From contig NC_013441.1 in assembly GCF_000024785.1 (NCBI RefSeq), forward strand, positions 1,426,001 through 1,490,000: a stretch of 64,000 bases of DNA, written 5' to 3'. A program made the position numbers and the translations under genes. This DNA comes from Gordonia bronchialis DSM 43247 (GTDB taxonomy: Bacteria; Actinomycetota; Actinomycetes; Mycobacteriales; Mycobacteriaceae). The stretch's first letter is position 1; every line of letters starts with the position of its first letter. The notes under the pieces are model-generated. The model worked only from the letters and a program-made list of their open reading frames with translations. It had not been told where the DNA came from and did not search any database. Below, piece after piece: positions 28,011-56,931 of this stretch.

Positions 28011-28628
28011 GTGCTGCTGGATGTGTTGAACTACGCGGGCATCGTGGTGTTCGCCGCATCGGGTGCCACCGTCGGCGTCCGCAAGGACTTCGACCTCTGG
28101 GGCATCGTCACGGTGGGTGTTCTCACGGGGGTGGGCGGCGGCATTCTGCGCGACGTGTTGTTGGGCCTCACCCCGCCCGCGTCGGTGCAGAACTGGACGC
28201 CGGTTCTGGTGGCGTTGCTCGCGAGCCTCCTCGCTTTCTTCTTCCATCCGGCTTTCAGTCAGCTGCGGCGCACGATCCTGGTGCTCGACGCCTTCGGGAT
28301 GGGATTGTTCGCGACAACGGGTGCGGTGATCGCGCTCGATGTCCATGCCAGTCCGTTCGCGGCGACACTGGTGGGCCTGCTGACCGCGATCGGTGGCGGC
28401 ATCCTGCGCGATGTGCTCGCCAACGACGTTCCCCTGCTGTTGCAGCCGGCCGATCTCTACGCGGTGCCCGCTGCGCTCGGAGCGACGGTGGTCGCTGTCG
28501 GCAGCACGAATACCGATGTCCCGCACTGGGTGTGGCTGATCGTCGGCAGTGTGCTCGCCACCGGGCTGCGGCTGGCCGGTCTTGCGTTCAAGTGGCGATT
28601 GCCGACGGCGCCGCGTCGTCGAAGCTGA
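28011..28628 (+). CDS. TRIC-type (UPF0126) cation channel family protein
   Basis: 205 residues, seven hydrophobic segments in two homologous halves, each holding the family motif: GVGGGILRDVLLG near 40-53 and AIGGGILRDVLAND near 125-138. The family includes the bacterial trimeric intracellular cation channels; older annotation calls them YadS. The GTG at 28011 begins MLLDVLNYAGIVVFAASGA with no clear ribosome-binding site. Confidence 0.92.
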   Translation: MLLDVLNYAGIVVFAASGATVGVRKDFDLWGIVTVGVLTGVGGGILRDVLLGLTPPASVQNWTPVLVALLASLLAFFFHPAFSQLRRTILVLDAFGMGLFATTGAVIALDVHASPFAATLVGLLTAIGGGILRDVLANDVPLLLQPADLYAVPAALGATVVAVGSTNTDVPHWVWLIVGSVLATGLRLAGLAFKWRLPTAPRRRS

Positions 28629-28633
28629 TTTGG

Positions 28634-28698
28634 GTCCATCACTCTTCTCCCAGATCCACCACCCTGGGACCCGGTGGGTTTGCCGAAAAGTGGTGGAC
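28634..28698. repeat. Dispersed palindrome family A, copy 1 (terminator-like)
   Basis: Arms at 28634-28660 and 28673-28698 form an imperfect inverted repeat with right-arm core GGTTTGCCGAAAAGTGGTGG. It lies between convergent genes (the TRIC-type gene and the dehydrogenase), where a two-way terminator would be expected. Its last 28 bases are identical to the reconstructed IS3 target at 48.16/49.52 kb. Confidence 0.7.
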
Positions 28699-28707
28699 GG
28701 AAACGGC

Positions 28708-29478
28708 CTACTGCGCGATCAGTTTGTTCACCGCGCGGTTGAGGACGTTGGGGATGAACTTCGCCGCGTTGCCGAGCACCAGGGTCTGGGCGCCCACCGA
28801 GTAGCTGGTGCGGTGCAGTAGTTTGTCCTGCCGGGTCGGGTGCACCGATTCCCACACCTTGTCGGCCACCTGCTCGGGGGTGATCCGCACGCCGAGCGTC
28901 TTGGTGGACTTGGCGTCGTTGGCGGCCAGCGCGGTCTTGGCCCACAGCGGCCAGATGCTGACGACTCGGATGTCGTCGTGCTCCCACTCGAGTTCCAGTG
29001 CCTCGGTGAGACCGGCGACAAAGAATTTGGTGGCTGAGTAGACGGCGATGCCGGGCTGCCCGTAGATCGCCGACGCCGAGGCGATGTTCACCAGATGTGA
29101 GCCGGGCGTCGCCTTGAGGTAGGGGTGGGCGGCCTGCGCACCGAGTGCGACGCCGAGCGCATCGATGTCGATCTGGCGCTTGATCGCGTCGGGATCGATC
29201 TCGGTGATCAGCCCCTCGTGCAGGATGCCGGCGTTGTTGTCGAGGACGTCGAGCTTCCCGCCGGTCGTCTCGGTGAACTCGCCGAGAGCGTGTGTCCACT
29301 GTGCTGAATCGCGTACGTCGAGTTCGCCGATGATCCAATCGGGGTGGTCGGCCTTGACCTGGTCGAGGGCTTCTTTGTTGACGTCGTAGACCCCGACTGT
29401 CCAGCCTTCCCGGCCGAACCGTTCTGCCGTGGCGAGTCCGATGCCCGCCGCGCCGCCGGTGATGAAAATCGATGACAT
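28708..29478 (-). CDS. Short-chain dehydrogenase/reductase
   Basis: 256 residues from the ATG at 29478, which has GGAGACGG upstream; an in-frame start at 29616 would run through the shared promoter. Cofactor motif TGGAAGIG at 7-14, DNNAG near 90, catalytic Ser in NIASASA near 135 and YSATK near 150. The acidic residue after strand 2 (VYDVNKE) suggests NAD rather than NADP. It is divergent from the diiron oxygenase across a 158-bp region with three near-perfect palindromes. It may oxidise or reduce the product of that oxygenase (inference). Confidence 0.92.
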   Translation of the reverse strand: MSSIFITGGAAGIGLATAERFGREGWTVGVYDVNKEALDQVKADHPDWIIGELDVRDSAQWTHALGEFTETTGGKLDVLDNNAGILHEGLITEIDPDAIKRQIDIDALGVALGAQAAHPYLKATPGSHLVNIASASAIYGQPGIAVYSATKFFVAGLTEALELEWEHDDIRVVSIWPLWAKTALAANDAKSTKTLGVRITPEQVADKVWESVHPTRQDKLLHRTSYSVGAQTLVLGNAAKFIPNVLNRAVNKLIAQ

Positions 29479-29636
29479 ATCCGTCTCCTGCTCTGACCTG
29501 CGTGGACGAGGCCCGTCCGCAAACTTACCGGTGAGTATATTCCGTGGTCTGTTTACCACGTCACACTCCAGTGCTATCGTTACAACATACGTTGTCATGA
29601 CATCAAACGTTGTCACGATTTTGGGAGGCGAAGTCC
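29479..29636. promoter_or_regulatory. Divergent promoter with three palindromic operator candidates
   Basis: Three short inverted repeats lie in the shared region: ACTTACCGGTGAGT (29523-29536, one mismatch), CGTGGT-CTGTTT-ACCACG (29543-29560, perfect) and ACAACATACGTTGT (29582-29595, two central mismatches). ACGTTGTCA also recurs as a direct repeat 20 bases on. TetR-family operators look like this, but no regulator gene is adjacent. GGGAGGCG at 29623-29630 is the oxygenase ribosome-binding site. Confidence 0.5.
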
Positions 29637-47361: not shown

Positions 47362-48024
47362 ATGAAGAAGAACATCACGCGCCGCGTGGTCGCCGGCGCG
47401 GCCATCACCGGCGCAGCCGTGATGGGTGTCGCGACCCTCAGCGACGGTGTCGCGGCAGCGGGTCCGCTGCCGGGTGGCAAGATCACCAAGACGCTTGCCG
47501 ACGGCACTCCCATCACCGTCACCCTGTTCGACCAGTTTGCGAACCATCAGCGCGCAGTCACCAATGTCCAGACCTCGCGTGAGGTCTGGGTCAGCGGCAA
47601 GGTGCGCGTCAACGTGGGCGGCAAGGCTGACGGTGGATCCATCAAGGTGGGTTACGACGTCGGGTGCCAGGTCACATTTGGAGCGGAAGCCGGAGCTTAT
47701 GGCGGCGTCGACTCCACGAAGGATGGACTCCGACCGAACAGCGATACCGGTATCACCGGCGCGGTCACCCTCGGCCCCGGCCAGGTGAAGACCGTGTGGG
47801 TCATCAACACCACCTCGGGTGACAGCACCGCGTACGAGGACTACGAGGTCAACGACTACACCTTCAAGGGCAACAAGGGTGGCGTCGTCTACAGCCAGGA
47901 GAAGTTCGGTGTCGATGGTTGCGCCGGTTACGCCTCGGCTCGCCCGCGTATCCAGGTGACCGTCTCGACCGACTCGGTCAAGAGCGTCACCGTGCTCAAC
48001 GGCAAGCCGTTCAGCCTGGGCTGA
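47362..48024 (+). CDS. MspA-family porin, paralogue 2
   Basis: 220 residues; GAAGGGGAATC upstream. Signal peptide MKKNITRRVVAGAAITGAAVMGVATLSDGVAAA, then the same fold blocks as its neighbour: YDVGCQVTFGAEAG, GITGAVTLGPGQVKTVWVI, VDGCAGYASARPRIQV and VTVLNGKPFSLG. The two are clearly homologous but diverged, which argues for different subunits rather than gene dosage. A strong hairpin ends the pair downstream. Confidence 0.92.
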   Translation: MKKNITRRVVAGAAITGAAVMGVATLSDGVAAAGPLPGGKITKTLADGTPITVTLFDQFANHQRAVTNVQTSREVWVSGKVRVNVGGKADGGSIKVGYDVGCQVTFGAEAGAYGGVDSTKDGLRPNSDTGITGAVTLGPGQVKTVWVINTTSGDSTAYEDYEVNDYTFKGNKGGVVYSQEKFGVDGCAGYASARPRIQVTVSTDSVKSVTVLNGKPFSLG

Positions 48025-48046: not shown

Positions 48047-48086
48047 GCCGAAGGGCGGGAATCCGAAAGGGTTTCCGTCCTTCGGC
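48047..48086 (+). terminator. Terminator after the porin pair
   Basis: GCCGAAGG (48047-48054) pairs with CCTTCGGC (48079-48086), with further pairing of GGGAA and TTTCC inside, followed by TTTCTC. It is 23 bases after the second porin stop. Confidence 0.75.
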
Positions 48087-48120: not shown

Positions 48121-48166
48121 GCCCACCACCTTTCGACAAACCCACCACTTGGTCAGCCGGTGGGTT
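48121..48166. repeat. Dispersed palindrome family A, copy 2 (left part, split by the IS3 element)
   Basis: Left arm CCCACCACCTTTCGACAAAC, spacer, and the first bases of the right arm, GGTGGGTT. The rest of the right arm, TGCCGAAAAGTGGTGGAC, resumes at 49525 beyond the insertion sequence. Rejoined, the arms match at 22 of 24 positions. Confidence 0.75.
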
Positions 48167-48217
48167 TGATCCGTCCCGGTGTTTCCGGAGGGTTCGTCTC
48201 AAGGGAGAATGAAACCT

Positions 48218-48538
48218 ATGGCAGTGGCAGGATCGAAGCGATACTCGGATGAGTTGAAGCGCGACGCGGTGGACATGGTCGAGCAGTTGGTGGCTCAGGG
48301 GTCCACCGAGTGGGCGGCGATGGGCAAGACTGCGGATTTGCTCGGAGTCGGCTCGGCGGAGACGGTTCGCCAGTGGGTGCGCAAGGCGCCGTCGGGCGCC
48401 GCCAGCGCGCCAGCCAAGGCCGATAGCGAGGAGATTCGACGACTCAAGCGCGAGGTGGCCGAGCTCAAACGAGCGAACGGGATCCTGAAGGCGGCGTCGG
48501 CTTTCTTCGCGGCCGAGATCGACCGGCCACACCGCTAA
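48218..48538 (+). CDS. IS3-family transposase OrfA (helix-turn-helix subunit)
   Basis: 106 residues from the ATG at 48218 (an ATG at 48209 adds three; AGGGAGA lies upstream). KRYSDELKRDAVDMVEQL and TADLLGVGSAETVRQWVRKA form the DNA-binding helix-turn-helix; RRLKREVAELKRANGILKAASAFFAAEI is the leucine-zipper helix that meets OrfB. Confidence 0.92.
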   Translation: MAVAGSKRYSDELKRDAVDMVEQLVAQGSTEWAAMGKTADLLGVGSAETVRQWVRKAPSGAASAPAKADSEEIRRLKREVAELKRANGILKAASAFFAAEIDRPHR

Positions 48539-48540
48539 TT

Positions 48541-49494
48541 GTGGAGTTCATCCGCACTCACCAGGGACACCAGGTGGGTGCGGATGGCCTTGTCTGGGGC
48601 GTCGATTCGATGTGCGCCGTGCTCTGCGAGCATGGTATCCACATCGCCCCGTCCACTTACTATGATCACATCAACCGCGGGCCGAGCGCCCGCATGTTCG
48701 CCGATGCGCAGGTCATCGATGCGATCTTCGCTTTGCGCCGGAAGCGACCGCTGATGCGGGTTCTGGGTTCACGCAAGACATGGATAGTATTGCGCAGCAG
48801 TGGTATTGATGTTGCTCGATGCACTGTTGAACGAGTGATGCGGGAGATGGGATGGCATGGCGCGAGTAAGAAGAAGCGAGTGCGTACGACCATCCCTGAT
48901 GCGGCAGCGTCGCGGCCGGCGGATCTGGTCGACAGACAGTTCTATGCTGCGGCACCAAATCGGTTGTGGGTAGCCGATTTTACCTACTGCCGCACCAAGT
49001 CGGGGTGGGCGTACACGGCGTTCGTCATCGATGTGTTCGCCCGCAAGATTGTCGGCTGGAAAGTGGCCTCGGAAATGACAGTGAACCTGGTTACCGATGC
49101 CATCAACAACGCGATAGACAACCGAAAGCGTTGCGGTGTAGTTGATTTAACGAGACTCATACACCATTCAGACGCGGGATCGCAGTACACAGCGATTGTG
49201 TTCGGGCAGCGGTTGGCCGAGGAAGGCATCGCGGCTTCTATTGGCAGCGTTGGGGATAGCTACGACAACGCGCTCGCGGAGTCGGTGAACTCTGACTACA
49301 AGAACGAACTCGTCGACAACCAGCCGCGATTTCACGGCGCGACCGAACTGTCACTGGGCACGGCCGAATGGGTGGCGTTCTACAACCGTGAACGCCCACA
49401 CAGTTACTGCGACGACCTCACCCCCGACCACGCTGAGCGACTCCATTACGATCACATGCGCACCCTCAATCCGGAGGGGGCACTCACAACCTGA
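48541..49494 (+). CDS. IS3-family transposase OrfB (rve integrase domain)
   Basis: 317 residues, frame -1 to OrfA and starting on a GTG two bases after its stop; the frame is open into OrfA, so a programmed frameshift could give an OrfAB fusion. Catalytic residues: Asp near 146 in WVADFTYCR, Asp near 211 in HHSDAGSQY, Glu near 247 in NALAESVNSDYKNEL; exactly 35 residues separate the last two (DD35E). The C-terminal FYNRERPHSY is intact. Confidence 0.94.
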   Translation: MEFIRTHQGHQVGADGLVWGVDSMCAVLCEHGIHIAPSTYYDHINRGPSARMFADAQVIDAIFALRRKRPLMRVLGSRKTWIVLRSSGIDVARCTVERVMREMGWHGASKKKRVRTTIPDAAASRPADLVDRQFYAAAPNRLWVADFTYCRTKSGWAYTAFVIDVFARKIVGWKVASEMTVNLVTDAINNAIDNRKRCGVVDLTRLIHHSDAGSQYTAIVFGQRLAEEGIAASIGSVGDSYDNALAESVNSDYKNELVDNQPRFHGATELSLGTAEWVAFYNRERPHSYCDDLTPDHAERLHYDHMRTLNPEGALTT

Positions 49495-49674
49495 GCTCTC
49501 CGGAAAAGCCGGGGTGGATCAGTTTGCCGAAAAGTGGTGGACCAGCCGGAGAACTGGGGGACCGGTGCGGAGTTGCTGTGCGGTCGCTGAATCAGGCCTT
49601 CGCGCTTGGTGTTCGGTGGCGCGTCGCGGATAGGCTGCCAGAGTCGATCTCAACAGAGAGCAGAGAGTGAGTGC

Positions 49675-55829: not shown

Positions 55830-55926
55830 CCTCGAGCGCGCCTGAGCACCCGTTTAGCACTCGGAATGGATGAGTGCCAAGATCGGTTACACTTGTCAGC
55901 GATTCACTGACTTTTCGGAGGTATCG

Positions 55927-56250
55927 GTGCCCACTTACTCGTATGCGTGCACGGAGTGCGACAACAAGTTCGACATCGTCCAGTCGTTCTCGGACGACTC
56001 CCTCACCGAGTGCCCGCAGTGCACGGGCCGGCTGCGCAAGCTCTTCAACACCGTCGGCATCGTGTTCAAGGGCAGCGGCTTCTACCGCACCGACTCCCGG
56101 CCCGGCTCGTCGTCGTCGGACACCTCGTCGAGCGACAGCTCCTCGTCCTCGTCGAGCGATTCCTCGTCGAGCACCAAGTCGAGCGATAGCAGCAGCAAGT
56201 CGGAGTCCTCGACGTCGTCGACCCCGGCCAAGGCCGCAGCACCCGCCTGA
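55927..56250 (+). CDS. FmdB-family zinc-ribbon protein with Ser-rich tail
   Basis: 107 residues from the GTG at 55927 (CGGAGGTATCG upstream). Zinc ribbon: CTEC near 9-12 and CPQC near 32-35 in PTYSYACTECDNKFDIVQSFSDDSLTECPQCTGRLRK; then GIVFKGSGFYRTDSR. Residues 60-107 are nearly all Ser/Asp/Lys. The M. tuberculosis equivalent, Rv0991c, is described as a chaperone-like protein under stress control. TACACT at about 55892 fits its -10 box. Confidence 0.88.
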   Translation: MPTYSYACTECDNKFDIVQSFSDDSLTECPQCTGRLRKLFNTVGIVFKGSGFYRTDSRPGSSSSDTSSSDSSSSSSSDSSSSTKSSDSSSKSESSTSSTPAKAAAPA

Positions 56251-56270: not shown

Positions 56271-56338
56271 TCGCCCACCACTTTTCTGCACATCCACCAC
56301 CCAACGGTGTGGTGGATCTGCAGAAGAGTGGTGGGCGA
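56271..56338. repeat. Dispersed palindrome family A, copy 3 (two-way terminator)
   Basis: Two 30-base arms (56271-56300 and 56309-56338) pair at 28 of 30 positions around an 8-base loop, with core CCCACCACTTTTCTGCA. It sits between convergent genes (zinc-ribbon protein and 5-formyl-THF cyclo-ligase). Confidence 0.8.
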
Positions 56339-56352
56339 GTTGGTTTCCGCCG

Positions 56353-56931
56353 TCAGCCCAGCTCCTGGAACCCACCCTCGGGCGTGAGCACCCACCCGAC
56401 CGGCACGTCCAACGGCCCGGACGGCAGCGAGTCGACGATCTCGTCGTCGTACACGACGGCCACGACGTCGGCGGTCAGACCGGTCAATGTGCGGTCGTAG
56501 TAGCCGCCACCCCGCCCGAGCCGCACACCCGACTTGTCCACGGCGAGAGCCGGCACCAGGATCAAGGACGCCGCGCGGATGGCCTCGACGCCGAGTCGTG
56601 CGCCGGTCGGTTCCCAGAGTCCCCAGCGGCCGCGCGCCAGTGATTCCTGCCCGTGATAGCGTGCCCAATCCAGTGGCCCCGGTTCACCCGGCGGCACCAC
56701 CGGGATGAGGACGGTGACGCCGCGGTCGAGCAGCGCGTCGAGCACCGCCAGCGATCCGGGCTCGGAGCCCACGGGCACATAGGCGGCCACCGTGACGTCG
56801 TACTCCAGCCGGAACGGCGCCGCATAGATCCACTCGGCCAGGTTTCCCGCTGCCTGTTCGCGGGCGAACGGCGACATCGTGGACCGTCGCTCGATGCACT
56901 CGTCCCGTATCCGCTTCTTCAGTGTCCGCAA
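56353..56931 (-). CDS. 5-formyltetrahydrofolate cyclo-ligase
   Basis: 192 residues, starting on a TTG at 56931 (no ATG/GTG upstream in a better position). KKRIRDECIERRSTMS is the usual N-terminal substrate helix, PVGSEPGSL the middle block, and VPALAVDKSGVRLGRGGGYYDRTL the ATP/Mg site signature. It converts 5-formyl-THF to methenyl-THF using ATP. Divergent from galU; same order as Rv0992c-galU. Confidence 0.92.
   Translation of the reverse strand: MRTLKKRIRDECIERRSTMSPFAREQAAGNLAEWIYAAPFRLEYDVTVAAYVPVGSEPGSLAVLDALLDRGVTVLIPVVPPGEPGPLDWARYHGQESLARGRWGLWEPTGARLGVEAIRAASLILVPALAVDKSGVRLGRGGGYYDRTLTGLTADVVAVVYDDEIVDSLPSGPLDVPVGWVLTPEGGFQELG

Follow-up and report, generated by a model that had tools for sequence, protein, structure and literature searches.

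Private palindromes bracket a family of genes for predicted AbiEi-EDxHD proteins in Gordonia and other Mycobacteriales

A 60-bp palindrome, here called family A, occurs three times in a 64,000-nucleotide stretch of the genome of Gordonia bronchialis DSM 43247 (assembly GCF_000024785.1, contig NC_013441.1, positions 1,426,001 to 1,490,000 of the forward strand; this whole stretch is the window, and its first letter is position 1), where one copy is split by an insertion sequence (IS) of the IS3 family. Our results show that family A is one of a set of palindromes that come in pairs and bracket a gene for a protein with a predicted AbiEi antitoxin half and a predicted EDxHD/Vsr-type homing-endonuclease half, each gene having palindromes of its own. 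Of this pairing of gene and palindrome, which is observed directly, we have hardly any doubt. That gene, private palindromes and solo copies elsewhere form a two-part system resembling that of the repetitive extragenic palindromic (REP) sequences, spread by the nuclease, is the statement to which we incline as a whole; for the single element of nuclease-driven spread we put the chances at about even.

Complete copies of family A have two 24-nt arms around a 12-nt centre (24 + 12 + 24), with an outer GCAAAC extension in many genomes, and each arm reads GCAAACCCACC, 8 bp, GCAAACCCACC, which gives four motif copies per palindrome. When the arm was searched for in the window with up to 3 mismatches, 4 matches, belonging to 3 elements, were found, whereas 100 shuffles gave 0.00 on average; the whole genome (two contigs, 5,290,012 bases) holds 9 matches at 5 places and none to the reversed pattern, so that the dispersed family described in the first-pass annotation is real. 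Three of the five palindromes lie within 27.7 kb of the window (28637-56334). The uninterrupted copy, which had been placed at 28671-28698, exists but belongs to a longer and somewhat degenerate 60-bp palindrome at 28637-28696, at a junction that holds a nuclease cassette in other Gordonia genomes; the third copy, at 56275-56334, is complete and lies between convergent genes. With a covariance model built from 18 copies, 26 of 59 Gordonia genomes were found to contain family A (E <= 0.001), as were, among the matches listed, 16 genomes from 5 of 31 genera in a draw of 201 from the taxonomic family (E <= 1e-4).

Pairs of family A palindromes about 1.04-1.1 kb apart enclose one gene in several genomes. 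A profile of seven proteins from such cassettes finds the gene family in 58 of the 59 Gordonia genomes (E <= 1e-20), and a second profile, of 49 sequences, finds it in 28 of 31 genera of the taxonomic family (176 of the 201 genomes drawn; E <= 1e-25). Among the 30 loci returned by the seven-protein profile, the 11 best-scoring genes all have family A palindromes on either side; none of the next 19 is bracketed in this way, and these gave one weak, one-sided match (L318). The 11 genomes with family A cassettes have at least 16-77 family A matches each, counted on both strands among the matches listed, and 33 of the other 48 Gordonia genomes have none. Different palindromes were seen in a hairpin scan beside many of the other 19 genes. 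A flank test that assumes no sequence, in which the 250 bp to the left of the gene are compared with the 250 bp to its right, was applied to 95 loci (these 30, 20 picked Gordonia genes, 28 new loci and 20 picked from other genera, minus three repeats). At 89 of the 95 loci the left and right flanks are more alike than in any of the 640 controls, which comprise 43 window genes (maximum 33) and 597 random spans in Gordonia loci (maximum 32), and for 72 of these 89 the palindromic character exceeds that of every one of 200 shuffles. Outside Gordonia the sample spans sixteen genus labels, for 15 of which one locus or more exceeds the controls.

Solo copies accompany the flanking ones in all three palindrome families for which they were sought: A, a second family B and one family from a cassette of G. 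bronchialis itself. The half-motif of family B is present in 9 of 59 Gordonia genomes (30 matches in G024, 28 in G054, 14 in G033, 8 in G017, 7 in G041, 6 in G040, 3 in G050 and 2 each in G012 and G049), with one control match in all, and B elements stand on both sides of the gene in 5 of these 9 (G024, G033, G040, G041 and G054) and on one side in G017. G. bronchialis has five genes of the family, of which four were read with their flanks (L331-L334). The motif of the cassette around the gene at 4826162-4827079 of contig C1 occurs in five solo elements besides the two that flank the gene, with a single match in the control; no copy of two motifs taken from the cassettes of this genome was found in the window. 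A comparison of seven loci with Rfam gave six sub-threshold matches to microRNA or small RNA models, all on the palindromes of L333, which we take to be hairpins matching by chance.

The palindrome sequences are private to each gene and are built on a common 19-bp design. A 9-base stretch is repeated, with at most 1 mismatch, at exactly 19 bp in 56 of the 89 loci against 1.3 in shuffles; among the other distances from 8 to 39 bp, none occurs in more than 7 loci. Likeness between palindromes is confined largely to close relatives: 15 of 18 pairs of loci are alike where mean protein identity is >=80%, about 7 of 71 at 60-80% and 1 of 3,156 at 30-60%, this sole pair being L345 with L393, where the stretch from L345 is only 24 nt. 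Mean protein identity between unlike families is 29% in the winged helix-turn-helix (wHTH) domain, 41% in the middle part and 48% in the nuclease part, and a lower wHTH identity is expected if this domain reads the palindrome.

The protein appears to be an AbiEi-antitoxin half joined to an EDxHD/Vsr-type homing-endonuclease half. In a structural model (predicted local distance difference test score 92.4), residues 1-192 match AbiEi and residues 197-310 match I-Bth0305I/Vsr, so that structure comparison of the model recovers both the AbiEi antitoxin fold and the catalytic-domain fold of EDxHD homing endonucleases. PADLOC models of AbiEi also match the first half of the protein, and E200, D234, E244 and D246 are invariant in 49 sequences. 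No match to the protein was found in a sequence search of the PDB, to four such proteins in NCBIfam, or in phages at E 1e-5; plasmids gave four partial matches (three from Tsukamurella and one from Collinsella).

A single junction exhibits several states of the unit. The window copy at 28637-28696 lies between two genes that we take, by eye, to encode a TRIC-like channel (28011-28628, forward strand) and an SDR dehydrogenase (28708-29616, reverse strand). Thirty loci were fetched with the TRIC gene and both stop codons are visible in 18. Nine of these contain an intact palindrome-gene-palindrome cassette (gaps of 1,120-1,146 bp); remnants are present in G014 (frameshifted, 1,112 bp) and G055 (internally shortened, 872 bp), and solo palindromes in G. 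bronchialis (family A, 79 bp) and G041 (another family, 113 bp); four junctions are empty (38-45 bp), and that of G012 has 110 bp without a recognised palindrome. The window copy thus occupies a place taken by the complete unit in relatives. Of the nine intact cassettes (L301-L309), six have the gene directed towards TRIC and three have it directed towards SDR, as would result if the cassette were able to invert between its palindromes. The third window palindrome is flanked by genes presumed, again by eye, to encode an FmdB-like zinc ribbon protein (55870-56250, forward strand) and a 5-formyltetrahydrofolate cyclo-ligase-like protein (56353-56931, reverse strand). In G011, a cassette of another palindrome family (L316) lies between the same two genes, the neighbours being identified by eye, and such junctions seem to be reused by different cassette families.

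Our best reading of these observations is a selfish system similar to REP sequences and their REP-associated tyrosine transposases (RAYTs), carried by an unrelated enzyme. The gene is bracketed by two copies of its private palindrome of about 60-70 bp and further solo copies are present elsewhere, those of family A mostly directly behind the stop codons of convergent genes. Two papers report that I-Bth0305I forms a dimer on a target of almost 60 bp (PMC3943268) and that the promoter of AbiEi contains two 11-bp inverted repeats to which AbiEi binds (PMC3985639); on these grounds, a dimer of the protein may read the motif copies through its AbiEi-like half while the nuclease half would nick or cut the DNA at the palindrome. 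Repair might then copy the palindrome, or the palindrome together with the gene, into new sites. Sites behind stop codons would persist, either by doing little harm or by acting as terminators, and where the gene is missing, as for family A in G. bronchialis, the palindromes would be left to decay.

The surroundings of family A bear on two other explanations. We surveyed 60 copies with their flanks, 30 from G056 and 3 from G. bronchialis, using a crude caller of open reading frames; 13 overlapped a predicted frame and were excluded from the distances. The 47 intergenic copies lie between convergent genes in 33 cases, between co-directional genes in 14 and between divergent genes in none, as against 7, 22 and 9 for 38 further intergenic gaps in these loci. 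Of the 80 distances to a stop codon, 64 are of 7-24 nt and 8 exceed 41 nt; the median is 15 nt. Such a distribution is what host transcription terminators would show, in which case the nuclease gene would have no connection with their spread. However, matching palindromes are also found beside the start of the gene, the sequence is particular to each gene, palindrome families follow the gene across genomes and a terminator has no need of a 19-bp direct repeat, and we consider this explanation improbable. The palindromes may instead be operators of autoregulated AbiEi-like proteins, the solo copies forming a regulon and the nuclease half serving defence or repair without any spreading. The binding of AbiEi to inverted repeats in its own promoter and the PADLOC matches are consistent with this, but the palindromes occur on either side of the gene, no second gene shares the 1.1-kb cassettes read, and all 47 intergenic copies of family A, solo or flanking, adjoin at least one gene end with none between divergent promoters; this role seems unlikely to us as a full account. 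Part of the data would be accounted for by a purely regulatory role, or if the gene had enlisted host terminators.

The cassette may also be a transposon with palindromic ends, moving by cut-and-paste or copy-and-paste, with the solo palindromes as remnants akin to miniature inverted-repeat transposable elements. The compact unit of about 1.1 kb, the filled, empty and remnant states of one junction and the two orientations of the gene at that junction would all fit. However, each gene has ends of its own, whereas an IS exists in many identical copies; no target duplication came to light, and the nuclease fold is not that of a known transposase family, so that a transposon of this kind is distinctly unlikely. 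Several observations weigh against the REP/RAYT-like reading that we prefer. We infer the movement of cassettes and palindromes and have observed none, and the empty TRIC/SDR junctions could be losses. Nine of the 11 family A cassettes share one junction; the genomes are hence non-independent and p values for co-distribution are too small. Five genomes lack an intact family A cassette but have at least 8 family A matches each (25 in G014, 18 in G043, 16 in G055, 11 in G021 and 8 in G. bronchialis), although G014 and G055 contain broken remnants and G043 has a family A match beside a lower-scoring gene. The flank test failed at six loci (L314, L317 at a contig end, L319, L326, L338 and L390) and its controls were drawn from Gordonia alone; 17 of the 89 matching flanks are not palindromic beyond shuffles, as in the shared stretch of L396, and the 19-bp repeat was not detected at the threshold used in 33. 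Over all 3,297 pairs, the correlation between protein identity and palindrome similarity is slight (Spearman about 0.1), and the histidine of the EDxHD name was not traced. Finally, palindrome copies are hardly more similar within genomes than between them (0.834 versus 0.799), a weak sign of concerted evolution within genomes, which was rejected.

The IS that interrupts the remaining window palindrome is a separate matter. The first 44 nt of this palindrome are at 48123-48166 and the last 16 nt at 49525-49540, after the IS and its GTT. The element measures 1,355 bp (48167-49521, forward strand) and has imperfect terminal inverted repeats (TGATCC...GGATCA) and a GTT target duplication (48164-48166 on the left and 49522-49524 on the right), exactly as first annotated. 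Removal of the IS with one GTT rebuilds the 60-bp palindrome, as had also been proposed, and by eye its right arm is indeed identical to the other window copy over 28 bases. The first reading frame, orfA (48209-48538, forward strand), matches HTH_Tnp_1 in a scan of 48218-48535; the frame is open from a GTG at 48179 and the in-frame ATG at 48209 is the start that we chose. The second, orfB (48541-49494, forward strand, in the -1 frame relative to orfA), contains HTH_21 and an rve integrase core and scores 260.8 bits against NF033516 (cut-off 160). Both frames match transposases of this family, and a helix-turn-helix in orfA, an integrase core in orfB and a short target duplication are all features of the IS3 family. 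A programmed -1 frameshift between the two frames, a further feature of the family, may operate here. An unrelated hairpin at 48047-48086 (18-nt arms, 83% complementary), directly behind a gene ending at 48024, resembles an ordinary terminator.

The first-pass annotation had further regarded the palindrome as an insertion target of this IS and had named unrelated sites for its other copies as the outcome that would contradict this; such sites are what we found. Seven full-length copies, each with 100% BLAST identity, are present in the genome and one of these is inside a family A palindrome, while the other six are flanked by a tandem repeat, a short-repeat region or other unrelated sequence. 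At least 11 full-length relatives are present, among the matches listed, in four other Gordonia genomes (6 in G015, 2 each in G031 and G008 and 1 in G032), and none of these 11 is within family A. A 3-bp target duplication was seen for 6 of the 7 own copies and 3 of the 11 relatives; the copy without one (L002, C1 4955039-4956396) has AGG/GTT flanks, perhaps due to recombination between IS copies. Two further copies, L003 within a tandem repeat and L004 close to a repeated 15-mer, are not in strong palindromes by score. Palindrome strength at the 18 sites showed no shift from 660 background windows (Kolmogorov-Smirnov p 0.26). Two sites did surpass all of these windows, namely the window insertion itself (L001) and L186 in G008, where a relative is placed centrally in a long array of short inverted repeats, which leaves room for a weak taste of the IS for strong palindromes. 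IS3-family elements that choose REP sequences are already in print, the first-pass annotation having mentioned IS elements of this habit in other bacteria: ISPsy8 and IS1397 share with our case the position of an IS3-family element in a REP-like palindrome, but PMC1525189 gives 5 of 5 ISPsy8 copies inside a REP and counts as REP-targeting those elements with >45% of at least four copies in the repeat, as against 1 of 7 here. One clean insertion and the two strongly palindromic sites apart, little suggests recognition of the palindrome as target in that manner. It is very improbable indeed, and a preference for family A was rejected. The insertion at 48167-49521 is an ordinary IS3-family event that struck a dispersed palindrome by chance and in itself adds little.

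The nearest known way of life is that of REPIN-RAYT systems, in which, according to PMC3116915 and PMC3733652, dispersed extragenic palindromes flank an enzyme gene and each gene has one private repeat family. Dispersed extragenic palindromes and an enzyme gene flanked by them are found here too, and the logic is the same, whereas enzyme and repeat design are unrelated: an HUH tyrosine fold is replaced in our modelled protein by the AbiEi and EDxHD/Vsr-type halves, the palindromes are of 60-70 bp with a motif repeated at 19 bp, and the consensus of family A, the family examined for this, has no GTAG or CGTC end tag. A RAYT-like mobiliser was rejected because the gene beside the palindromes is not of that fold; no search was aimed at RAYTs. 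The protein differs from I-Bth0305I in lying outside an intron, in its added AbiEi-like half and in its flanking palindromes, and its cutting of DNA is only predicted. It differs from the AbiE type IV toxin-antitoxin by the extra nuclease-like half, and no AbiEii toxin gene was found within the TRIC/SDR-junction cassettes read, each of which has one gene alone (toxin families were not searched for elsewhere). Among open-licence papers, none was found that joins such palindromes to an AbiEi-EDxHD protein. An IS in a REP-like repeat is known in print, but for the pairing of such a gene with private palindromes no description was found in that literature.

In summary, we provide evidence that nuclease-like genes are paired with private palindromes; within one bacterial order, a single 19-bp design underlies many repeat specificities. 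An enzyme has been proposed for REP-like palindromes where there are RAYTs, and the same association is seen here with a nuclease-like protein of unrelated kind. It is an open bet, with the odds evenly poised, that these genes make up a class of selfish genes in the Mycobacteriales that is very large and has so far gone unrecognised. Its AbiEi-EDxHD proteins would bind as dimers to a palindrome of 60-70 bp with four motifs, would home to such sites or convert them, and would seed private palindromes behind genes. If so, the reading of a large set of annotations would change, as many actinobacterial 'type IV AbiEi antitoxins' would be palindrome-homing nucleases, and the REP/RAYT way of life would have been invented independently. 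The association itself puts dozens of natural protein-DNA pairs at hand for tests of the origin of the repeats, of their role behind genes and of how winged-helix specificity changes.
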